DNA of 64,000 bases, from NCBI GenBank assembly GCA_037042915.1, contig CM073195.1, forward strand, positions 3,162,001 through 3,226,000, in the 5' to 3' direction. The stretch is from Auricularia sp. M13 (taxonomy: Eukaryota; Basidiomycota; Agaricomycetes; Auriculariales; Auriculariaceae). This document shows positions 33,976-58,906 of the stretch, piece by piece. Both the position numbers and the translations under genes were made by a program. Positions within the stretch are counted from its first letter, which is position 1, and each line of letters opens with the position of its first letter. Below the pieces are notes generated by a model that searched no databases, was not told the DNA's origin, and saw nothing but the letters and a program-made list of their open reading frames with translations.

Positions 33976-36900
33976 CACGGCAAGGCGCAAACGCAGACCA
34001 TTAGGTGTATGTATACCCCACAACGGCGTCTAGTCGGTGAATGAGCGGATAGTCGACACGCCTGGGTGTGGAGGCTATAAAAAGCCGCAAGTCACGGAGC
34101 ACAGAGTTACCGCGGTCCATGAAGTATAGCAGTATAACCAGATGTCAAATATTGCCCCAGAGTAGAGCGTATTCTTGCGATGGCAGTCTGACATGCCGTG
34201 CCACGTCAACGGTCGAGGCAAGGAGGCGGCAACCGGTTGGTTTTTCTTCGGAGCATAATGAAGCTTCTCGGGGTCAGCAGACGGCGTCATTGGCGCAAGA
34301 TATTGTGCTCGTGGGTGTTGTCCGTGAGTGCCGCGTCCATGACGCTAAAACTGCAGCGCGACTCGAGCAGCCACAACGGCATGGAAAAATCGACGGAGCC
34401 ACACGCGCGCGAAGCCAAGCAACATATCGTGCAAAGACTCGCCACGAACAGAAAGACCGCCACATTGAGCCGCAGCTGGAACCAGGAGCATCTGACGAAA
34501 TTCGGGGCATTGGTCAAGAGGCAAGCTTAGGTAATAAGCGCGCGCTGAGTCGGTCCAACTTCCTCGAAACTTCGTCGACTCTTTCCAAGCACATTCTTGT
34601 GGCAGATTCGAGAGGCATTCCACAATACCAGTGCAACTCCTCTTCTGGCACTATTCTCATACAGGTCGGAAGATTTCTCACCCAGGGTCCAGCCAATGCT
34701 CGCGCGATACACATAATAGCATTCGAACAAGGCTTTCCTAGTAAGTCTTTATTGATTAGAAGACAGGGATATTCTATACATTGCTCGGAGGATTGTTTGG
34801 CCGAGGGTAGTGGACGGTTTGGTGCCCGGCGTATAGGTACTGTACTCTACGCGGTCCCACTAGAAATCATCTCGGACAGTATGGGAATCCGCCTTAACCC
34901 TTAATTCATTATCGTGACATTCCTTAAGCGATGTCAAAGCTTAAGAGGTGCCGCACATACCATAGCATACTCTCTCCGGTCAATGAATCAAACTTACCAG
35001 TTGCACCTCTCCTCGATCCCTCGCTTGTCCCGCGCCGTTGTAGCTCTCAAAATAACGTCCTTGCCACTAGGGTATTACACGTACTTACAGTACGTTCCTC
35101 GAACCTTGGATGCGCACTTCGAATCACAATGGCCAACTTCACCCGCGTGACTGCGAAGTCAGCAAGTCTGTTCGCAAAGCTGCCAGAATGACATCACGAG
35201 TAATAAATCACACGCAGAGGTTTACTTCAGACGGAGTCCCGTTCACCCGCCCGTGCTTCACTTGATATTGACTTCCAGAGGACTGTTATTGAGGCAAGGA
35301 TGGTACCATACTCCGGCACTTGTCGCGGTGATTCTTCACCCTTTGGGTCATGCCACTCGCGTGCCTTCGGGCCGAACGCGGCTTCCACAGGCATTCATTC
35401 TCCTGACAGGGAACAGCGAGATTGGCTCGTTTACGCAACATAGGCATCCCGACGATCGGGATCTGAGGGATATCCTGTGTTCCTCTCGGACCCATTCCCA
35501 TGCGCAAGCCTGACGCGCAGAGTTCCGCGAGGCCGCATTATCCCAAGCGAACGAAGCACCCTGGGCGCTGCGCATGAGAAGGCAATGCTACTATATGAGG
35601 TATGCCTCCTCCTCCTCCGATGCCGTCGATTCGCTCAGCTGTTCTTTTTTCTAGAAACCATTGTGTTTCTCTTCTAGCATTTCTATCGTTCCATAACCAG
35701 AGGAACGCTAAGTACTGCAGATCGTGTAGGCACCTATTTGCACGAGATGACAGGCACAAACCTCCATGGACCCTGAGCGCTTCACCGGCACAGCTGATCG
35801 TCATCGCAAAAGCTTATCTCGCCCAGATTGGTCTTCAAGCCGCGAGGATCATCCTCGTTGTGGCCAAAGATCTAGCCTCGAATGGAGACAGCGTGCCCAC
35901 GCAGTGAACACGTAAAGGGTGTGGCAGGCACCCGTGTCCAAACTGCCAGGCCGTGGGTGCGAGCTGCGCGAGCAGCGACACGCCGCACACGGGAACTGAG
36001 AATTACTGGCTTCACTGTGCCTCCTCGAGCGTCGATGCACGTCCACTGTTCAATCGAATCGGATCTCGTCACGAAACGTGCGTGTCAATACACTTCTGCT
36101 GATCGGGCAGCCCTCTCGCCGGTCCGGAGGGCACAACACCTTCCCCATGCAAACAGCTCTCAATCTCACGAGTGCAATCTGGGAAAGCGTCACTCGACGC
36201 GCAGAATAGCACACGACCAGCCCTCCTCCTCCGGCGGGAACGCCCAGGGACCCAGCCCATGCCTCGCTGACCCCACATTCCCGGGTAAGGCAGGCTTGCA
36301 CTCCCGACATTGCCCCATGCAGACATAACATGGCCTCACCACTTTGCAGAGCCGCACTGCTGGATCCTGACGCATCCTGACTACGCCCGCAGATGTGTAT
36401 CGTCGGACTGTGTGGGATGTGCGAGCGCGCTTGCTTGCCGCACATCGCACGGTAAGTTGCCGACGTGAAAAGCAAAGTCGAAATGGTAAGTCATGGCATT
36501 TCATTATCCTACACCTGTACTCGGGACAGTGCGAGTGGGATGATATAGATACTTGGTGTGCGTGGGTACGCCCTTTGGACGTGGGGCAATGCGATGGGAA
36601 CGAACAGATGAACATCGGAAGAGGGCGGCAGAGAGAAAAAGAGAGAGACAGAGGGAGAGGAAAGCTAAAACAGGACTCGCAGAAATCGGGAGGAAGAAAA
36701 TGACCCAAAAAGCGCCGCGCCAGTGCGTCGCTGTATGACATGTTGAAATCTCAAGGGGATAAGATACCAAAAACCCGAGTAGGACGAAAGAGAGAGGTGG
36801 AGGGGAGGGACGCGAGGCAAAAGCACAACAACAGCACGACATCGGACAGAGGGCAGGCAGGCAGGCAGGAGAAAAAGAAATCAATTCAGACAGTATAGTT
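33976..36900. other. Gene-poor interval, about 2.9 kb
   Basis: I can support no gene here. The longest plus-strand open frame (34068-34904) begins in the GH28 promoter and has no recognisable motif. Minus-strand frames near 34290-34730 contain one hydrophobic stretch (LNVAVFLFVASLCTICCLAS) but no clear splicing to a protein I know. A purine-rich plus-strand tract near 36600-36700 belongs to the 3' flank of the RasGEF gene. Confidence 0.4.
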
Positions 36901-39900
36901 TCACGACGGCGCAGGCGTCGGCGGCCCGCGCAGCGAGCTGGCAGCCCATCCAAATAGCTGCTTGATGTCTGTCGGCGGCGCCGGATCCGCTGCCTGGCGG
37001 GGCTCCACCAGCAAACTGCAAAAACAAAACCTCAGCCATCGCCGTCCGTCCCCAAAAGAGCGTCAAGCCAAAAAAAAAAACGCACCTTCGGCGATACAAA
37101 TCACCAAGATCCCCGCTGTTTTTGGCATTGTCGAGGACATATGTGAGGTACGCCTGGATTTCCGGGATGCTCTTGAGCGCGTAGGGCACCTGGAAGCGCT
37201 GCATGTCTTGCACGATGCGCGTCAGCTTGTGGTACTTGTTGAAGTTGATCAGCTTGCGCGACGGGTCGCCCGGCGGGGAGCGGTGCGACGGGTTGCCGTC
37301 GCGGCAGAACGTCATGTCGGTCAGGTAGAGCCCCAGGAAGGGCACAGCGGGCGGCTGCGTCGCCTTCAGCCGGTTGCGGTACACGCTGTAGTTGCGCGCG
37401 TGGTCCGCAAGCTTGCGGAGCTCCTCGAACGCGGCGCGACTCTTCTGATGCAGACCCTATGAAGGGTGATAAGCAACCAAGCACCGACTTGCCCATTTGC
37501 AGCAGCACTGACCTGCCAGGTCTGCGCCAGGCGCGAGATAGTCGACGAGTCAAGCGCGGCGAGGATAGCCCTCGGCGCGGAGAAGTTGTTCAGGGTGACA
37601 CAGCGCTGCAATCAAAGGACGGGTCAGTCCGGCCCCGAGGATGGAAGCACGCAGCACAGCGCAGCGAGGAGTGGCAACTCACGTCTCCGACCTTGATAAA
37701 GAACTTAAGGAGAGCAGTCCGCTTCTTGATATCCTGCTCCGACAGGATGCTCTCAGCAACCCAGCCGGTGAGCGCGGTGCTCAGCGTCGACAGCTTGCGC
37801 ACGTTGCCGAGCGCGCTGTCGGGCCCGAGCACCTCCTCCGCGCGCACGGCGCGGTACAGCTCGCTCTCCATCACCGTCAGCTGGCGCGCGAGCTCGAGCG
37901 CGTCAAAGTCCGTCGGCGACACCGCGGAGTACTTGCGGTCGCGCAGCGCGGCGAACAGCGTCTTCGTCACGATGGGCCGCGGGATGTCCGCGAGCGCGGG
38001 CGTCGGCGCCGACGGCGTCGTGGCGCCCATGAGCAGCATCGGCGTGATGGGCGAGTCCGGCTCCGTCAGGCCGAGCTCGGCGTGCAGCGGGCGGCCGGCG
38101 GAGCGCATCGCGACGAGCTCGGCGACGCGGCCCGCCGTGCGGCCGAGCGACGGCGTGATGTCGTCCTCGAGCATCCGCGTCAGCGGCTCGAGCGCCGAGC
38201 GGTCGCTCGGCTTCCACTGGAACTCGAGCCACGTCTTGATGAGGTTCGTCACGCGCAGGCGCACGGGCATCTGCTTCGTCACCCGCCATGTGTCGTAGTC
38301 CTCGCCCGGCGGCGGCTGCAGGTTGAAGCGCGCGCGCAGCGCGTCGACGAGCTCGGTCGGCGTGGTGAACATGCGGAACGTCGAGTAGAACACGGTGGAG
38401 AACGTCGGGTCGACGATGCGCGAGTGCGGCGTCATGTGCTCGACGATCGCGCCGAGCGACGCGCCGATGAGCAGGCCCTCGCTGTTGTACATCACGTCGC
38501 GCGCGTCGGTGTCCTCCATGCCCGGCGCGGGCGGCGGCGTCGGCGGCGGCGCCCCGCCCGCGCCGGCGGGCTCAGCCTCGCTATTCGTGCTCGCGAGCGT
38601 CGAGATGCTCGCGAACGACGGCATGGGCGTCATGGGCAGCGACGGCAGGTCGCCATGCAGGATCTTGTCCTCCAGCGTCGTCGAGCGCGTCGACGCGGCA
38701 GACGCCTCGAGCGGGTGGTGCGGCGTGCTGCCCGAGACGGGGATGACGAGCTGCGGCGGGCGGCGCTGCTCGCGGTCGGCGTCGGGCGTCGGCGGCGGCG
38801 GCTCGTCCTCCTCCGTCGCCTGCGTCTCGTCGATGTCGGACAGCATCGCCTCCGAGTCGCGGCGCGACGACATGAACGACTCCATCGCGCTCGAGTCGCT
38901 CCGCGTGCGCGCGCTCAGCCCGTCCTCCGACCGGCGCACCTGCACCGTGACGTCCGCCTGCACCGTCTCGTCCTCGTCCGCGCGCATCGCGCTCATGCTG
39001 CGCACCTTGCGCACGACGGTGTTGTCCTCGTTCGCCGCATGGCGGTCCGGCGGGAGGACGATGACCGCGTTCTGGCCGAGGCCCCTGAGCACGCCCATGC
39101 GCACCGCCGCGGCACAATCGTTGGATGCCTTGAGCGTGCCTGTCGCGCACAGCAGAGCATGTTTCTTGTCCTGCTCCTCCTCCGAGTTGTCCTCGCCCTC
39201 CGCGGCGCTCGGCGTAATCGCCGTGAGCTGCTTCGTCGCGTCGACGAGCGCAGACACTGCGACGTAGAGGTTGTCCTTCGCGTCGCGCAGGCGCGAGGCA
39301 CGCGCGCCCGCGCTCGTCACGGCATCAACTATGCGGATCATATTGGAGACCTTGTCCACGGCCTCGGTCATGATCGTAATGAGCTGCGATTTCGAGCTAG
39401 AATGCGCAGTGCGGACATGTGAGTGGACGAGCCCGATAAACGCGGCGACGGTCGAGAGCAGGTCGTCGTGGCACAGGCGGAGGTAGGAGAGCAGATCGGA
39501 CGGACTGCAGGGGCCGGCAGGCACGAGGGAGACGGCGCCGCGCCCGGACAGCGAGCGCGGCGAGGAAGGCGAGGAACTCTGGCGGCTGCCAGACGCGCCA
39601 CTGGAGCTAGAGGAGATGGAGGATATAGACTCGCTGTTCTGCGCATGGGTTGACAGCGAGCTCGGCTTCTGACGTCGAACCACTGCAGGGGTGGACCCCG
39701 CGTAGCGAGAATTGACGCCCAGCCCTGGTCCTGGGCCGCGGGGGGTAAGTCGGTGCATGAGCGGGGTTGCTGAGGAATCGGAAAACTCGTCGTCGGACAC
39801 GACGGTGGGCGGGCGAGGCTTCTTCCTGGACTCGAGGCCGATACGCACTGCGGAGGGCTGGCGTGTGACGGCGGGGCGGCCGGACTCGGACTCGGAGGAG

Positions 39901-40853
39901 TAGGACGGGGAGGCGGCGCTGCGGCGGCGACGCGGGAACTCGATGCCGCACTGGTGTGCAACCTCGACGAAAGTCTCGGTGTCGAGATAGACGTGCAGGG
40001 CGTGTGTAAGCATTTTCGCGTGCTGGCCGGCGCGCTCCTCTTCGTCGACGTCGGTCTCGTCCGGATTGTCCGAGTCGGGCTCCTGCTCGGCGGAGCAGGC
40101 GCGGGTCTGAGCGACGAGCGCAGACAGGTCGTCGAGGATGCGTTTGCGCTCGACGAAGAGCTGGTGGTGGGCGCGCATGGTGGGCGTGTCGCGCTGGAGA
40201 CAGTCGGCGCGGACGAGGACGGTGCGCACGCAGGAAATAATGCAGGCCGTCGACGGCTGGAAATGCGTGAAGCGCTGTGCGAGCACTGCAGACTTGAGCA
40301 GTGAGATGCCCTGGAGCAGCGGCTGCAGCACGGGCGGCGCGTCCGGATCAGAGAGCACCTGGTCCAGGGCGTTGTGGATCGAGAACTGGCTGCCGGCCGT
40401 CGACGAGCGCGCTCCAGAAGATGGCCCTGCGCGCGAGCTGGCCCAGGAGCTGATGGAGCTGTTGCTCTTCTTGTGCTGCGCAGGGGACCGGGCTCGGGTC
40501 TGGCGGCGGTCAGTGGGGGCTTGGACTGGCTCGGGATTGCGGCGCACGGTGGTCACGACGGGCACGGGGGCGGGGTCGTCTGTAAGCTGGGGCAGGGCGC
40601 TGCCGGTGTAGTTGGACGGGAACCAGCCGCGCTTGCCGTCGAGCTCGCCGTCCCACCAGCCCGACGGGTCGCGGTTGAGGACATGGATGACCTGGCCGGC
40701 CTTGAACGCCAGGCACGTCGCGTTGCCGGCGGGCGTAAAGTCGTGCAGCGCGAGCACATACTCGTCCAGGCCCACCGGGGACTGCTGCTCCGTCTCCGAC
40801 GCGTCGTTGCTGCTGCTGGCGGCGCTGTCGACGACGGCGGCGGCGGCGGTCAT
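36901..40853 (-). CDS. CDC25: Ras guanine nucleotide exchange factor, Cdc25 type (SH3 - RasGEF_N - RasGEF)
   Basis: This membrane-associated activator loads Ras with GTP and would feed cAMP/PKA or MAPK signalling. The N-terminal SH3 domain (about residues 30-85) has YVLALHDFTPAGNATCLAFK, GWWDGELDGKRGWFPSNY. A long Ser-rich region with helical segments follows. The RasGEF_N motif is near ATLGAIVEHMTPHSRIVDPT-like sequence at about 38400-38450 (SLGAIVEHMTPHSRIVDPTF). The catalytic domain starts at DFDALELARQLTVMESELYR and continues over two introns as KRTALLKFFIKVGD, RCVTLNNFSAPRAI, TISRLAQTWQ, VPFLGLYLTDMTFCRDG and FNKYHKLTRIVQDMQRFQ. A last intron with an A-rich plus strand (T-rich in the transcript) precedes a short tail ending PTPAPS, TGA at 36901-36903. 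The first exon alone is about 3.2 kb. The start at 40853 is well placed before the SH3. Confidence 0.93.
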
Positions 40854-41048
40854 GGCAACTGGGGGCTAGGTTGGCGGACAACGGGCGCGCTTGCTGGCGG
40901 CGCTGGCACTCGAGCAGCAGGCAGTTGATGGTCGTCGGCGTGTGAAGAGCGAGGGACGGTTCACTGGGCTTTTTAGCCGCAATCACTACAAACATTCAAA
41001 AATCCAACCTCCCCGGCTCTTCCCGGCCTGCCACCCAAGAGACCAGAC
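40854..41048. promoter_or_regulatory. Divergent promoter of the RasGEF and nickel transporter genes
   Basis: Start codons lie 195 bp apart on opposite strands, so this interval must serve both genes. I recognise no specific factor site. Confidence 0.55.
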
Positions 41049-50463: not shown

Positions 50464-52741
50464 CTATATGCCTAAATCTACGAAGACGAACGACAGTGGT
50501 CAGGCGAGGAATGCGGTCAGGCAAGCAGGACGCACCTTCCAATAACCGTTTCCGGTCGTCCTCGTTGATGTTGCGCGTGGCGCGGCGCGCGAGGAGCTTC
50601 TCGGTGCGGAACTGCTCGTACAGCACGTCCTTGGTGCTCGCCTTGAGGACCTTGAGGTGCGTGCTCAGCACGGCCGTCCGGAGCGCGGAAAAGTCGCAGT
50701 GCTGCGGGTCGAGCACGTCGACGGTGCCCCAGCGGAAGTGGCGCACGAAGCGGCCGCGCAGCGACGGGTTCACGCTGAGCGGCACGGCGGGCAGCGCCGC
50801 CGGCGCGCCGCCCACGGGCGAGTTCGGCGCCGTGAAGTCGATCGTGCCCGTGCTCCTGCGCCGCTCGCCAAACTCGCGGTCGGGCTCGGGCGACGACGCG
50901 ATCATGCTCTGGTGCCCGTCGTCCGTCGCCGGCGCCGCGTGCGCGTTCCCGTTCCCGTTGGTGGTCGCCGCCTCGGACTTTTTGTGCTTGCGGCGCGCGT
51001 GGTGTTTGCGCGGCGCCTCGGGCGCGATGACGGCGAACGGGAGCAGCGCGGCCGACGCGCGGTGCTGCGCCGCCGCGCCGGGCACCGCGTCCTCTCCGCC
51101 GGCGACGACGGGCTGGTGTGCCTCGCCGAACAGGTCCGCGTCGAGCTCTTGCAGGTTGCGCTTCGACCGCGAGCGCGAGAGCATGCCGAAGCGGCCCTTT
51201 CGGATCTGGATGACCTTGGGCCGCGTCTCGCGCGCCGCCTCTTCGCCCTCCTTATCATCTTCTTCGTCTTCCTTTGCGCCCGCCGGGCCAGGATCGGTCT
51301 GCGCCTGGCCCTTCGGACGGCGGTGCGACTTTTTGGCCGACTCGCGCGGGTCGAGGTTGTCGAACACGCCGAAGCCAATGCCGGCCTCGAACAGGTCGCG
51401 GCGCACGGCGCGCTTGATGCTCGCGAGCTTCTCGTCCGTGAGCGAGTCCGCGCGGGCGATGACGGGCAGGATGTTGACGCGGGTCGCGAGGCGCTTGATG
51501 ACGCGGATCTCTGCAGGGTTCATGGAGAGCCTGTGCTTGTCGCCGGCCGTCTTCCCGCGGGGCGAGCTCGCCTCGTTCGGCTCGTCCTCGTCGGAGGAGC
51601 TGTCGGACGATTCGCCCGAGCTGACGGAGGACAGGTCGTCAGGACGGTAGCGCAGACTGGTCTGCGAGCGACTGAGGCGGGGGAGAGCTAACTTTGCGCG
51701 GCGCACGGCGGGCGTCATGATCGACTCGGGCTCGATGAGGTAGATGCATCTGCGCGGGGGGCGGGGTCAGAGTGTAAATCATCGCTGTGCCACCGCAGGG
51801 CGAGGAGATCAATCGACAAATCGACAAACGCACAGGTGCACATGCTGATCGCCCTTGTTCTGCCGCACGACTTTGGATTCCTGTGTGCAGAGCGCAACTG
51901 AGTCCGAAAGGAAAAAACAATGGAGATCACTGCCAAAAGAAGCCGCGTACCTCGCCCATGGTCTCCGCGAACTGCAGGTCGAGGTACTTGACGATGCCCG
52001 AGACGGAGCGCTCGAGGCCGAGCTCGGCGCCGGTGGAAAAGTCGAGGCCGGGGGTGTCGATGACGGTGAGCAGGACGCGGTCGTGCCTCGTCTCGCAGAT
52101 CTCGATGCACGCCGTCTGCAAGGCGCGGGTGGCGCGCGAGCTGGTCTGGACGAAGCGCTCCACGCCGGCGCGCTGGTCGGCCGTGGCGTTCGGGGAGATG
52201 TCGCACGTGTCGAGCAGCAGCTTGAGCAGCGAGGTCTTTCCTGTGCCCTGCCCGCCTGCGACCTGAGCATTGCGATAAAAGTTTCGAAATAAGCAGCCAA
52301 TAAAGCAATAAATCCCAGGATCATCCCTGACAGCGCACGCACCATGAGATTGAAGGTAGGCGCGACCCGCGGCCGGCGCTGGGAGCGCTGGAACGAGTAC
52401 ATGGAATGGGCCGACGAGCGGTTGAACGCGCTCGGCGGGCTCTGCAGCTTGTCCTTCTGGTACAGGCTGGCGATGGTGCCGTCGCCGTCGACGGTCGCCT
52501 CGCCCGCGCGGAACGGCTTGTGGAACGGGATGTTGCCGCGGAAGGCCTGGAACGAGATTTTGCTCGGCGGCGTCGCCGGCTGCGTCCGCGCCTCGTTCAG
52601 CGCGTTCGGGTCGACGAGGTCCGCCGGCCAGGGGATGCCCTGCTGCGCCTGCGCCAGGTCCGGCAGCGACGGCGACACCTTGATGGCGCCCTCGTCCTTG
52701 CCCTTCTTCGCGCTCGTCCGCCGTCCGAATCCAAGCACCAT
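50464..52741 (-). CDS. Septin-like GTPase D
   Basis: A divergent septin, a GTP-binding protein expected to form filaments at the cell cortex or septum. Exons by splice consensus are 52343-52741, 51951-52262, 51834-51880, 50536-51749 and 50464-50477. The N-terminal 130 residues are unlike canonical septins. Then come the P-loop VAGGQGTGKTSLLKLLLDT, switch II VIDTPGLDF, NKGDQHVHLCIYLIEPES, ARVNILPVIARADSLTDEKL (G4 as ARAD) and the septin element FRWGTVDVLDPQHCDFSALR, with the helix VLKASTKDVLYEQFRTEKLL. A charged insert of about 150 residues lies between G4 and the W-G element. The short last exon gives DLGI and TAG at 50464-50466; reading through that intron would close at 50399. No coiled-coil tail is seen. 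It is paralogous to septin B and shares the phase-2 intron at HVHL/CIY. Confidence 0.82.
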
Positions 52742-53286
52742 GGTTCGATACAATGGCAATGGCCCTGTCTGTGGCTAGCCGCCGGTCAGCTCGCAGTCGC
52801 CGTCACCAGCAGCCGCCACGCACAAAAAAAGCTGCTGTCTGTCCGGGCGGCAGAGGTTAGGAACGGAAGCGGGCTAGTGGTCGCGGTCCAACTCGCGTTA
52901 CTCCGCACTTGGCAACCGCCGAACACAAAGGGGACGTTCACTCGATTGCATTGCAACTACCTAGTCAGCAGCCAAAACTCGCACTATGGGGAGGGGTCTG
53001 TTTGTACACGACAGATTATAGAGAGCAGAGAGAGAGAGATCAAGAAAGACTCGAGCACAGAGGGAAAAAAAAATAGCCAAAGAATACACACACACTGGGG
53101 ACGGAGGGGGGAAAGGGAAGTGAATGGACGGGACGGTGGTCAGTCAGTACTCAGTGATTGCAATGCGGATACGACGGGGGGAGCGGTGCGACGGAAAATG
53201 TGCGACTCGAACAGGGGGAGGGACAAGACAAGAAAGCGAATAGCAAGCAAGCAACAGTTCGTCAATCATTAAAATGGTGCTCGCGC
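52742..53286. other. Intergenic region between zinc-cluster gene C and septin D
   Basis: This 545-bp interval is the septin D promoter and the 3' flank of the regulator gene. The plus strand has a purine-rich run near 53010-53110. I see no gene. Confidence 0.5.
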
Positions 53287-55298
53287 TCACCACGAGCCCG
53301 CGACGGGCGTGAGCGGCCGCCGGCCCAGCATCTCCCCGAGCGACATGCGCGGCGGCACAGGCGCAGGCGGCGACCGCTCGCGCGGCCTCTTCAGCGGCGG
53401 CCCACCGCCCAGCTCGTCCGCGGCCTTCCGCTTCCCGTACCCCGCGCTATCCTCGAACGCGTGATGGTGGACGTACGGCGGGCTGCGCCCGGAACTGCTC
53501 GACGACGCCGCGGACATCGCCTCGTGCTGCTGCTGTTGCTGTTGCTGTGACGGCGCGGGCGCAAGCTTCTTCAGCCTCTGCGAATCAGGCCCAGCAGCGC
53601 TCGTCTCGCCAGCCTTCGCAGCATCCTGATCCGCAGAATGCTGCTTGGCGTGCGAGCTGCGCCGTCGCTGGTCCTCGAGATACTCGCACGGCAGCGACCG
53701 TTTCTGGCAGTTACCGCACTTGGGATGTTGACCGTCACACTTGGTCTTGCGCGCTGTACCGAATGTCAATAAACATCGCCACGGCACAAAAATAACACCT
53801 ATACTCACTGCGACAAAAGTTGCACGCAACAGTCTTGGGACCATAGTTGCTCCCCGAGCGCCGAATCCCATGCTTCTTCTTGTCAAGCTGCATCGCGACC
53901 TTGTCCGCACTCGCCGCAGAGTCCATATGGATCTTGGGCGAAGGCGGACCAGCATTACGAATGGGCGGGGGCACAGGCAGCGGCAGCTGTCCCAATGGCT
54001 GCGCGCGCGTGGGCGAAGGACCAGGGGCCTGCTGCTGATGGTGCAGCATCCTCGCCCGCGGATCCGGATGCATGATGACAGGCGACGGCCCAGGCAAGCT
54101 CGCCGTCCTGCGATGCCCATGACCAAACGCCTCCGTGTGCGCGTGCGGCGGGGGAAGGCGTTCGTAATCGTACTGCCTGGCCTCGCGCTCCCTGTCGTAT
54201 TCCCATTCACGCGCCCTGCGCTCGCGGTCGCGGTCGCGCTCCCGCTGGTCCCACTCGGCGCGCTCGCGGTTAAACGGCGCCATCTTCGCCGGCTCGCGCT
54301 CCCTATCGAACGCATCCTGCGTGCGCAGGCTCGAGTGCGGGAGGTGCTGCAACAGCGTCGGCTGCGGGATCTGTATGGGCGGCAGCTGTGGATGCGGGTG
54401 CTGGTGCGAATGCGAGTGCGCCGTGCGCGCATGCCCGTGTGGCCCTCCTCCGCCATCGACGAGGTGCGACACCGGCATGCGGCCAGGCGGCCGCTCCCTC
54501 TCCCTCTCGCGCTCGCGCTCCCGCTCTCGCCCGCGGTCCAGTTCGCGATCGCGCTCCATATCGGCGATGGGCGGCAGCCGCTCATGCTCGCGCTCGCGAT
54601 CCTCGAACGCCGCCTGCGCGCTCCGCGGCGGCGTGTAGTTCTGGTGCTGATGCTTGTGCTGGTGCGGCAGCGGACGATCCTCCTCGCTCGGCGGCTCAGG
54701 ACTCAGTGGGCGCTTCACGCCCAGCACGATCGAGCCCTCGCCGCCCGCAGGACTCGTAACCGTCGTCGCCGTCGTCGTCGCGTTACCGTTGAGCACGCTC
54801 CCCGCGTCGTCCCCATCGCAACACTCGTCCTTGGTCTTGCCGGCGCCAAAACCGCCGCGGCGTTTCAGCACGGGCTGGTAGTCGCAATGGTTAGAGCGCT
54901 TGATGCATTGCGAGCACGCGGGCCGGCCGCCATCGCACTTGAGCTTGCGCGCTAGAAGGGCCGCCGTCAGCACGCGGGCGCCCGAAAATAGCCAACTGAA
55001 CGGCGGCGTGCGTCACTTTACTCACTTCGACAGAAGTTGCATGCGACGAGAATCTTCTTTTGCCTGACCTTCGGTACACCTGGCAGGCCCGATGGGCGAA
55101 CGTAAGCTTAACGACGGATCCTCGAAGCACAGGCCAACGGCCATCTGATCGAGACAACTCACCAGTCGCGAGGTTGTACTGGCTCGTGCCTGGGATGAAC
55201 TGGGCAAAGTTAGGGGGCGATGTCGCCGCCGCCGAACCGCCAGGAGCTAGTGTGCCGGGGGCTGAGGGAGGAGCAACGGCAGGTGATGGTGCTGGCAT
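53287..55298 (-). CDS. Zn(II)2Cys6 regulator C, with two zinc clusters
   Basis: A nuclear DNA-binding regulator carrying two fungal-type Zn2Cys6 clusters. Exons are 53287-53753, 53809-54951, 55026-55079 and an upstream exon 55163-55448 shared in frame with septin B. Cluster 1 reads KKILVACNFCRTRKLKCDGG and then PACSQCIKRSNHCDY; cluster 2 reads KTVACNFCRTRKTKCDGQ and then PKCGNCQKRSLPCEY. Both have CX2CX6CX6CX2CX6C spacing. Between them lie about 370 residues rich in His, Pro and Arg-Glu repeats (about 54470-54600). The Gln-rich C-terminus ends TPVAGSW with TGA at 53287-53289. The clusters are each split by a phase-1 intron after CNFCR. If the gene has its own start, the only in-frame ATG upstream is at 55298 (MPAPSP). 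Otherwise it is the 3' half of a septin fusion. Confidence 0.75.
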
Positions 55299-56793
55299 GC
55301 CAAACGGCAGTGACGCAGACGGAAGCCGCAGCTGTTGCGGCGACAGATGCGTGTGAGCCGACAACAGCAGCTTTCCGTCGCCGGGGGCGGGCGCATTCCC
55401 ATTTCTCCATTGTCCGAAGAGTTGCTCGAAGGTGAAGGTCTTGAGCGCCTGATCACGGGATAGACGGGTAGGATTAGCATTAGGGTCACGCACGCCGGGG
55501 ACGCAAAAGCCCGAAATGAGTAACAGGCTGCGGTGCCCGCGTGTTTGCAGCGCGGCGCACAGCACACGGAGCGGATCAAGAGGGGTTGTTCGGACGGCAG
55601 CACGGGACGGGAGACGAGGCAGGGACTGACCTGCATGTGGCCAAAGATGGCGTCCCGGAAAGGAACAAAGTCGCAGTGCGTCGGATCAAGCACGTCCAGC
55701 ACACCCCACCTGTATCGCCGTGTGAAGCGACCCGGGGCCATCTTATCTCGTGCCTGGCCGTCGTGCGTGTACTGCCGGACGAGCTGGTCCCAAGTCGGGG
55801 CCGCGGAGCGCCGACGAACGCCATCGCCCCAGATGTACTGGTCGGGCGTCACGAGCGCGTAGGGTAGAAGCGGGATCGCCGCGTCGCGCGAGCCGACCGA
55901 GGAAGCGTGCGGCCGGAAGGAGGGTGCGGGGTTGCCGCGCGCGGGGTCGGAGCGCATGAGGGCAACGTTGCCGTCGTCAAAGATGCCGAAGCCGAGGCCT
56001 ACTGCCTTGAGGTCCAGGAAGACGGCCTTCTTGATAGACTCGAGTCTGTCGGACATGATGGAATCCGCGCGCGCAATGACGGGCAGGACGTTGACGCGCG
56101 CTGTCAGGCGGCAGATGGCCTGCAGGTCGCGCTGCGGCAGGGACGGGCCCTCCGCCTCGACGACGGGCGGCGCTGCGTGGTGGCGGACGGCGGCGGGGAT
56201 TATGTCATCTGGATCGAGGACGTAGATGCAGCTGGGTGGTGATGTGCAACGGTCAGCGGGTGCCTGAAGGCAATGAGCGGGAGCTTACAGGTGGACATGT
56301 TGATCGAAAATGCGCTGCAAAGAACGAGAACGGGCGGGCAACAATCAGCACACGAGACAAAAAAAGAAGGGCCTCGGGCGGGGCTCGAACGCACGTCCTG
56401 CAGCGAGCGGCGGAACCGGTCCTCGACGAGCGCGCACAGATCGTCGATGGCCGGCGGCGCGGCATCAAATTCGAGCGCGGGCGTGTCGACGAGCGTCAGC
56501 CGCACCGGGTCGCCGTTGCCCGGCGCGCGCACGTCGAGCGTGACGGCGCGGACGTCGGTCGTGGGCTGGGCGGCCGTGTTGGCAAAATTGGCCGCGGCGC
56601 GGGCCTGCTCGGGCGTCGCGGTCGGGGCGGTGTCCAGCGAGTCGAGCAGGAGCCGCAGCAGCCCCGTCTTGCCCGCGCGCCGGCCGGCGAACATGAGCGT
56701 GTAGCCTGGCGGCGGTGGCGGCGGCAGCGACGCGGGCGGGGGAGAGGGCGCCGGTGCCGGTGCGGGCGGGCCGTGGGCCTCGTCGCGGGGCAT
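55163..56793 (-). CDS. Septin-like GTPase B, open in frame into regulator C
   Basis: A second divergent septin. Exons are 56395-56793, 56289-56314 (26 nt), 55631-56231 and 55163-55448. A short Pro/Ala-rich start is followed by the P-loop FAGRRAGKTGLLRLLLDS, switch II LVDTPALEF (Ala where DTPG is usual), RIFDQHVHLCIYVLDPDD, ARVNVLPVIARADSIMSDRL, GFGIFDD and the septin element YRWGVLDVLDPTHCDFVPFR. The last helix, ALKTFTFEQLFGQWRNG, aligns with septin D's C-terminal helix and begins the exon at 55448. That exon has no stop. It continues through a Pro/Ala linker to NLATG, and its GT-AG junction enters VPKVRQKKILVACNFC of regulator C. I saw no separate septin stop, so the gene may extend to 53287. 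Confidence 0.72.
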
Positions 56794-57055
56794 GGCGGGC
56801 GTCGTCGTCGTCGTCGTCGTGCTGGGCGGAGAGTGGGAGCGGCGGGTGCGGGGACGGCGACGGGAGAGGAAGGAGGGAGAGAGCGGATGGCCGCGGTTGT
56901 AGACTCCGATGGGGCCCCCGGACTGACGGACAAGCGACGGATCAAATTTGACACTCCAGGATACGGTGCCGTAACGTCGGAGAGTAAAAATAAGAGTAAA
57001 GTAGGTCACAGTCCGTCCACGCATTAAAATAATACTACGCTGTATGCGCATACAG
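56794..57055. promoter_or_regulatory. Short spacer between regulator A and septin B
   Basis: A 262-bp spacer on the minus strand separates the stop of regulator A from the start of septin B. It presumably holds the septin B promoter. No specific motif is recognised. Confidence 0.4.
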
Positions 57056-58906
57056 TCACCGCCGCTCCTCGTACTCCTCCTCGTCGTACTCGTACTCGTC
57101 GTCCTCGTAGCCCGCCCGCTTCGGGTACGGCTTGCCCTCGGGCGACCGCGACGCTGCCCGCTTGTAGCCGTACGCGCCCCCGGCCACCAGCGCCCCCGGG
57201 AACTGCCCTCCCTCCCGCCCCGGCACGCCCGCCACGTGCCCCCCGACGGCCGGCACAGCCATCGTCCCGATCGGGAATCCCGTCCCCGCGCCCATATGCG
57301 GGGCCGGGTGCGCCAGCGGCATCCCGGGACCACCACCAGCCCCAGGCGGCGCCCCGTACATCATCTGCGACGCCGGCGGCAGCTGCGGCAGGCCCTACAG
57401 CAAAAAATGTCAGCGCTGTGCCCACGTCCACTTCATTTCCCGCGTTGCCGCGATTCGCGCGATCGCGCAACAAAGAAGGCTCACGGGCGCTAAAACGGAA
57501 AACTCAATCTCACCTGGAACGCCATCATGTCCGCCCCGGGCGCTACGCCAGCGCTGGGACCCGCCATCTGGTGGTGGTGGTGCAGCGGCGGCGGCGAGAG
57601 TGGCGGCGGAAGTGGCGGCGGAAGTGGTTGCTGGTGGTGCGGATGTGGCTGCTGGTGCGACGGCGGCGGCGGCGGCGGCTGGTGCTGATACGGCACGGGC
57701 ACCGGGAAGTGCGGCTGCGGGTGCTGGGCCTCCACAGGCGACTCCGTCCCACCTCCCCCGCTGCCCTCCCCGCCCTCCTCCGCCCGCAGCCGGTTCTTCT
57801 TCCCCGGCCCCCGCCGCCGTATCTCCGGGTCGTACTCACATGGCTGCTTGCGCCGCTCGCAGTTCCCGCAACTCGGCTTCGCCCCATCGCACTTGAGCTT
57901 CCGACCTGATGGTCCCGACCGGACATCCGAAGGACCCCCGCGATCACCCACCCCCGCAAGTTGCCGTCGACCCGGCCGTTCGGACGCGCCCCGTCAATCC
58001 CCATGTCCGAACCAACCCCCGCATGACGCACAGTGCAACACCGCCGTGCGAAGAGGCGGTATCGAAGTCGTCATGCAAGATTGAAGTGATACCGCCAAAA
58101 TCCGCGATTGGCGATCGCCACAGAACAACGCCCAGGTCGAAGTCGAAGTCGAAGACCGTGGTAATCGCAACGCAAGCGAACCGCCGCGATTGACAAGGGC
58201 AAAGTTGAAAAAGAGAAACATGTCGCATGGTCAGCATCTTCGTCGACAGATATTGAATGAGGATAGGGAATGGTTGGGCCTCGGAACCCTCGCGCAACAT
58301 ATACGCTGGGGCGAGAGAAGACGACGATCGTGAGGCAGATGAAGATAATCCACCAGAACGGGTACACCAGGGACGAGCTCATGCAGTTCCGGCCCTTCGT
58401 CTACCGCACCTCATCGACTCGGCCAACGCCATCATCACCGCCATGCGCAAGCTGGGCGCACGTCCGCCACACCCAAGTGAGACGAAACTCGCGAAACTCA
58501 CCTCTGCAGAAATGGCAGGCCATGGCGGTTTTCTTGGGCGCACGCTTGGGCTTGTCATCGCCGTCGTCGTCGTCTCCCCGCGCGCTCCGTCTGCCGCGCT
58601 TCCCGCCGCTCCCGCCGCCGCCTCCACCTCCGCCTCCGCCGCCAGCATGGCCAGCGTATCCAGAAGTCGACGTCGACGGCGCGTCCGAAGTGGACGGCTC
58701 CCTCTCGCCGTCGCCGCCCGTACTGCGCTGCGACGCGTACGCGAGGGGATTCTGGCCGGAGACGGACGCCCGGGACACGAGCCAGTCGAACAGCTGTGCC
58801 TCCGTGCAGAACCGGCGTGCCGACGCCGGTGCCTGCGGGCACGTCCTCTCGATCCTAGAGGCGCGCTGCAGCAGACGACGCTTGGCGGCCGCACGTCGAC
58901 AGGCAT
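57056..58906 (-). CDS. Zn(II)2Cys6 regulator A, with one zinc cluster
   Basis: A fungal zinc-cluster DNA-binding protein. A start at 58906 (MPVD) splices in phase to LFDWLVSRASVSGQNPLAYA. Exons are 58895-58906, 58502-58793, 57514-57905 and 57056-57393. A Gly-rich and acidic stretch leads to PKRAPKKTAMACHFCRG, and after a 596-nt intron the cluster is completed by RKLKCDGAKPSCGNC and ERRKQPCEY, with CX2CX6CX6CX2CX6C spacing. A basic RRRGPGKK follows, then a long His/Pro-rich low-complexity region and a Gly-rich tail. The C-terminus is acidic and tyrosine-rich (DDEYEYDEEEYEERR), with TGA at 57056-57058. The start is inferred from phase and could be further upstream. The zinc-cluster intron sits at the same codon as in regulator C. 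Confidence 0.75.

Follow-up and report, generated by a model that had tools for sequence, protein, structure and literature searches.

Group 5 (AspE type) septins, the extra, non-core septins of filamentous fungi, are held to be ancestral and to extend from Chytridiomycota to Basidiomycota in a section of Auxier et al. 2019 (PMC6323724), and a passage of Pan et al. 2007 (PMC1931588) lists Cryptococcus neoformans with one of them and gives basidiomycetes four or five septins. Septins have also been linked to regulators of transcription: Tpc1, a Zn(II)2Cys6 regulator of the rice blast fungus Magnaporthe oryzae, is required for normal septin rings, according to part of PMC5542705, and SEPT9_i1 promotes HIF-1alpha nuclear translocation, according to a title cited in PMC10287680. 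Here we analyzed a window of 64,000 nucleotides (nt) from the fungus Auricularia sp. M13 (contig C3, 3162001-3226000), in which a septin-like part, B, is followed in the same reading frame by a zinc-cluster part, C; this gene, B-C, lies between a zinc-cluster gene, A, and a divergent septin gene, D. An earlier note on this DNA had held that septins and Zn2Cys6 regulators have no established functional link, which is too strong given Tpc1 and its septin rings. We found no report of a septin-Zn2Cys6 chimera in the open-licence literature, and the word zinc is absent from the main text of PMC6323724 and of PMC11238149.

The minus-strand genes of the 50.4-59.4 kb region were modelled by hand from splice sites and homology (Table 1). 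Two septin-like regions and several zinc clusters do lie on this strand over the span first marked, with Pfam Septin and Zn_clus scores above the cut-offs. The four alternating genes read there (A, B, C and D) are present as domains in that order, but B and C form one spliced frame and the count falls to three; moreover C, taken for a regulator gene of its own, holds two clusters and is continuous with septin B. From the sequence we lean towards a locus of three minus-strand genes in the order A (one cluster), septin-Zn-Zn B-C, and D. By the hand models, 262 bp separate A from B-C, and a gap of 545 bp lies between B-C and D. The domain order within B-C is a septin-like domain, a linker and two Zn2Cys6 clusters. 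Against Pfam Septin the protein scores 76.1 bits over three stretches (cut-off 26.2), the best of which, residues 312-358, spans the junction of exons 3 and 4 between residues 342 and 343; against Zn_clus (PF00172) it scores 76 bits over two stretches, and both clusters have the features of the family. Part B reads AGRRAGKT at G1 and DTPA at G3, departing from GxxxxGK[ST] and DTPG in that G1 has lost its first glycine and G3 its glycine, and it is for this reason that we call it septin-like. B has no look of decay in its codon usage, which is coding-like in exon 1 and over most of exon 3. Near the C-terminus, KRKAADELGGGPPLKRPRE looks like a bipartite nuclear signal.

To examine the junction between the two parts, we took ten AG acceptors in 55630-55230 and scored the 15 codons behind each one against D and four core septins, five septins in all. 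The acceptor at 55448 scored 17.6 and the runner-up 1.8; four of the ten received no score, their codons meeting a stop or running off the stretch. Among the 89,224 stop-free 15-mers in the six frames of the window only two reached 17.6, namely the exon 4 peptide and another at 39.0, which we take to be D's own alpha-6 motif, D being one of the five scoring septins. Exon 4 thus opens as septin, since the alpha-6 motif scores in its first 15 codons. Past this motif, which ends at 55404, the septin frame is stop-free through exon 4 and, unspliced, open to 54891 within the zinc exons; the other two frames are open to 55247 and 55210, and no frame has a stop between 55404 and M393 (55298), the sole zinc-frame ATG upstream of the first cluster on the modelled exons. 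A separate septin-only B that includes alpha-6 and a zinc-only C that includes the first cluster would therefore have to overlap, and because all three frames are open this holds even given a one-base insertion or deletion error. Intron 4, which joins the linker to the zinc exon, has a donor of 9.8 and an acceptor of 8.3, compared with medians of 8.8 and 7.4 for the 26 GT-AG introns on which the splice matrices were built (28 introns were listed, two with GC donors were excluded, and B-C introns 3 and 4 were held out). We enumerated 18 splice paths from exon 4, using sites above a score cut and at most two introns; none of the 18 met a stop ahead of exon 5 / intron 5, and those that met none at all stayed open over the whole stretch read. 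Where intron 5 was also removed, the full chimera resulted in three of six paths, including the path with the best sites. We put at roughly 0.58 the probability that B-C is made as a chimera, in which two Zn2Cys6 clusters follow a septin-like domain in frame.

To place B and D among septins we searched the whole genome (52.1 Mb in 14 contigs, a single fungal genome) with the PF00735 profile. Of 18 matches, those above the cut-off mark six places: besides B and D themselves, contig C5 has two, C4 one and the part of C3 outside the window one. The same search of 14 prokaryote control genomes gave matches at the E-value limit in six and none above the cut-off. A weak match at C3:1183390 was set aside, being below the cut-off and reading by eye as another P-loop GTPase. 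Gene D scores 162.3 bits against PF00735 (cut-off 26.2), and at E up to 0.01 phmmer matched it to 44 distinct PDB sequences, with a septin at the top (2.8e-26). In the alignment D keeps G1 (GGQGTGKT), G3 (DTPG) and the WG element, and conforms to both motif patterns from which B departs. Its exon 51749-50536 carries long, charged, low-complexity insertions on both sides of G4 and before the WG element that are absent from core septins.

B and D resemble the core fungal septins (Cdc3, Cdc10, Cdc11 and Cdc12; PF00735) in the G domain, DTP, DQHVH-CIY, WG...HCDF and alpha-6, and differ from them in ARAD, long insertions and a different intron; B differs further in its two lost glycines and in continuing into zinc clusters. 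The Cdc names for the four core-like septins of this genome are our own presumptive assignment. As extra, non-core septins of a filamentous fungus, B and D would also fit the description of Group 5 septins, of which D is at most a candidate member. B and D are 36% identical, whereas B reaches 25-28% with the individual core septins, and the two have in common VN[IV]LPVIARADS, GFG[VI]FD and DVLDP. The earlier note was right about the HVHL/CIY intron, which lies at the same residue and in the same phase (phase 2) in B and D, and about the W-G...HCDF element, present in both. Introns were modelled for three of the core septins, none of which has this one; nor does it occur in the fourth one's open frame. 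The G4 site reads ARAD in B and D, not matching AKAD, which we take to be the septin G4 motif; the site is variable in the four core septins too (AKAD, AKAD, GKAD and AKSD). A tree of the six septins joined B and D at 100/100, and they are, as that note had supposed of its septins, each other's nearest relatives among the six loci. Relative to the four core-like septins B and D are, by sequence, sister paralogues. This relationship, together with the shared intron that core septins lack, makes an old septin duplication their likely origin. No relative encoded in viral, bacterial or archaeal collections was found with the N-terminal 498 residues of B-C, the D protein or the B/D alignment as queries; scans of viral_contigs with the three queries and of genome_contigs with the B/D alignment gave 15, 23, 41 and 98 stretches that match by pattern only.

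The zinc clusters were compared with others of the genome in the same way. A PF00172 search gave 51 matches at E up to 0.01, three of them in this locus, and none in the 14 control genomes; the surroundings were read for 40 of the 48 other matches. The comparison set comprised 12 clusters: the three here, five with similar tails by eye (two in one gene on C6, one on C1, one on C3 and one at a second C6 place) and four others. The C3 locus among the tail-alike ones sits 0.39 Mb from the window. Like other fungal Zn2Cys6 regulators (PF00172), B-C has six cysteines per cluster in the usual spacing, a basic tail and a phase-1 intron as found elsewhere in this genome; what sets it apart is that a single protein carries two clusters, preceded by a septin-like domain. 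A close counterpart in arrangement is the C6 double-cluster gene (L017, G000:C6:1988500-1997500, minus strand, about 4532 to 3343), which also has two clusters with a low-complexity stretch between them, the first split at the same place. In contrast to B-C, it has no septin part in the frame read, and its second cluster, with an RRRGP tail like that of A, is unsplit by an intron. Gene A matches Zn_clus in the second half of its cluster only (28.1 bits, cut-off 21), the first half being read by eye, and its modelled part holds one cluster compared with two in C. Some translated zinc-cluster pairs on different contigs are identical over the stretch read (L026/L041 on C5/C13, L023/L027 on C9/C12 and L030/L036 on C12/C9), which suggests recent duplication.

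Several observations weigh against a chimera with the history that we favor. Intron 3 is a length outlier, longer than 25 of the 26 other modelled GT-AG introns, and its acceptor score is low, yet in range (3.0 to 11.0); its donor is good and it carries TGCTAAT, which resembles a branch point. (Splitting intron 3 into two introns was rejected by eye, the alpha-6 frame being lost.) In three of the six paths with intron 5 removed the zinc frame is lost, and the acceptor at 54995 yields a septin-only form. Linker codons 361-438 have a codon score of -0.15 and a third-position GC content (GC3) of 0.64. This score is lower than in all 2,544 overlapping windows of D, three other Pfam-matched genes and one open reading frame (ORF) without a Pfam match, while 24.9% of 2,338 presumed non-coding windows nearby score as high and 23.3% are stop-free. 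Windows of 40 codons from residues 301 and 321, mostly conserved septin, are equally poor (-0.28 and -0.26), so codon usage cannot separate the models and lends the linker no support. A stand-alone C starting at M393 would have 58 residues before its first cysteine, near the 52 of the C6 double-cluster protein. The B branch in the septin tree is very long (2.5) and its composition odd, so that tree alone is no proof of the B/D pairing, and the case for a chimeric transcript comes from the sequence of one genome. If B and C were instead two overlapping units, C would begin at M393 under an internal promoter located in intron 3 or exon 3, and alternative splicing, intron retention or early polyadenylation would set the end of the B messages. 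The septin-only end at 54995, the poor codon usage of the linker and the length of the N-terminus from M393 all speak for such an arrangement, as does intron 3, which is long and stop-free in the septin frame and whose retention ends B at 55247. This retention, however, costs the conserved alpha-6 motif, and every septin-only form that we saw overlaps the coding sequence of C; we consider overlapping units possible but doubtful.

The central proposal of the earlier note, that a two-gene unit of septin and zinc cluster was duplicated in tandem to give the pairs A/B and C/D, is one that we regard as highly improbable. It would account for B and D being sister paralogues about 0.5 kb apart across the end of C and for the place and phase of the intron common to the zinc clusters. 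That common intron site is indeed found, in phase 1 after CxxCR, in both A (read by eye) and B-C, but it is not special to the locus: a phase-1 intron after CxxC(R/K) occupies the same cluster place at three other loci (the first C6, C1 and C3; splice sites by eye), although no same-place donor was found at the other C6 zinc locus. B and C, moreover, lie in one frame and could be separate genes only by overlapping, and A, as modelled, and C differ in their number of clusters. Over 34 positions the A half cluster is identical to C's two clusters at 17 and 19, and to five distant clusters at 17, 20, 19, 19 and 20; A is thus no closer to C than to the distant clusters, and zinc co-duplication gains no support. 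Of the separate trees that the note called for, the septin tree bore out the B/D pairing, but the zinc tree (12 rows on 45 columns only) neither supported nor rejected a clade of A and C: the approximately unbiased test gave P-values (p-AU) of 0.279 for A with C's first cluster, 0.305 with the second and 0.26 with both, and likewise did not reject C's two clusters together (0.164) or A with the second C6 cluster (0.315). It is also improbable, in our judgment, that the septins duplicated beside chance zinc neighbours and that only this assembly or strain has a continuous B-C. In favor of this reading, such zinc genes occur scattered over the genome; on the other hand, a one-base error past alpha-6 leaves both other frames stop-free to M393, and the coding-like exons of B also tell against it.

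The gene A model, with its first exon out of frame, was not used as a protein. A start at 58906, as given previously, is in a frame that differs from A's zinc exon; two related combinations starting from 59339 came out of one filtered search, neither of them convincing. The first modelled intron of A, 596 nt long, holds a piece of a G-alpha gene that is identical to the exon region C11:2859131-2859289 at 150 of 159 aligned positions, with gaps of 4 and 1 nt that break the frame, and that looks like a fairly recent insertion. Ten other ORFs were also scanned, and at E up to 0.001 Pfam matched five of them: two as RasGEF with SH3, and one each as a proteasomal AAA ATPase, an NCA2-like protein and a Brix protein. 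These surrounding genes have no bearing on the septin-zinc question. The RasGEF gene with an SH3 domain lies at 36884-40865 (-) and is Cdc25-like by reading of its sequence.

Table 1. Positions of genes and parts of genes at the septin-zinc locus, numbered from the first letter of the window.
Feature	Position	Strand	Basis or remark
Gene B-C, single open spliced frame, 991 codons then stop	53287..56793	-	spliced model, Pfam, junction tests
B-C exons (seven)	56793-56395, 56314-56289, 56231-55631, 55448-55163, 55079-55026, 54951-53809, 53753-53287	-	
B-C septin-like part, residues 1-357, closed by the alpha-6 motif that opens exon 4	55404..56793	-	
B-C intron 3, 182 nt, possible seat of an internal promoter	55449..55630	-	donor 9.4, acceptor 4.6
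B-C linker in exon 4, stop-free, includes M393 (55298-55296)	55163..55403	-	reading frames; codon usage weak
B-C first zinc cluster, ACNFCR/TRKLKCDGGRPACSQCIKRSNHCDY, split by a phase-1 intron (slash)	54860..55044	-	model and Pfam
B-C second zinc cluster, ACNFCR/TRKTKCDGQHPKCGNCQKRSLPCEY, split by a phase-1 intron (slash)	53662..53827	-	model and Pfam
Gene A, secure part, single-cluster zinc protein	57056..58560	-	model; junction by eye
Gene A exons	one ending at 58502, then 57905-57514, 57394-57056; cluster 58520-57814	-	
G-alpha gene fragment in first modelled intron of A	58305..58458	+	sequence alignment
Gene D, divergent septin, 661 amino acids	50464..52741	-	spliced model, Pfam Septin, alignment
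Gene D exons (five)	52741-52343, 52262-51951, 51880-51834, 51749-50536, 50477-50464	-	

Returning to a chimeric B-C, we suggest that an extra septin, best kept in D, was duplicated locally, and that the copy B then ran into an adjoining double-cluster zinc gene, the join lying inside the present exon 4. The septin-free double-cluster gene on C6 makes a fusion partner of this kind plausible. In the resulting protein the zinc clusters may bind DNA as a regulator, with nuclear entry perhaps through the signal near the C-terminus. The septin-like domain, probably unable to hydrolyse GTP, may act as a pairing or docking module; it could bind D, the likely partner, or core septins, and in this way tether or dimerise the zinc clusters. 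A broader possibility, which we think unlikely at present, is that some fungi encode a conserved regulator of this design, in which a catalytically silent septin domain and two Zn2Cys6 clusters link the septin cytoskeleton to transcription with D as the natural partner.

Even if B and C prove to be only overlapping genes, the locus would still hold an extra septin pair with an intron of its own in common and a degenerate GTPase copy. The septin-zinc chimera is an unusual architecture. If it is made, gene regulation and septin assembly, which marks hyphal tips and division sites, would be tied together in one polypeptide, and this would open a direct test of whether a transcription factor can be controlled by septin pairing.

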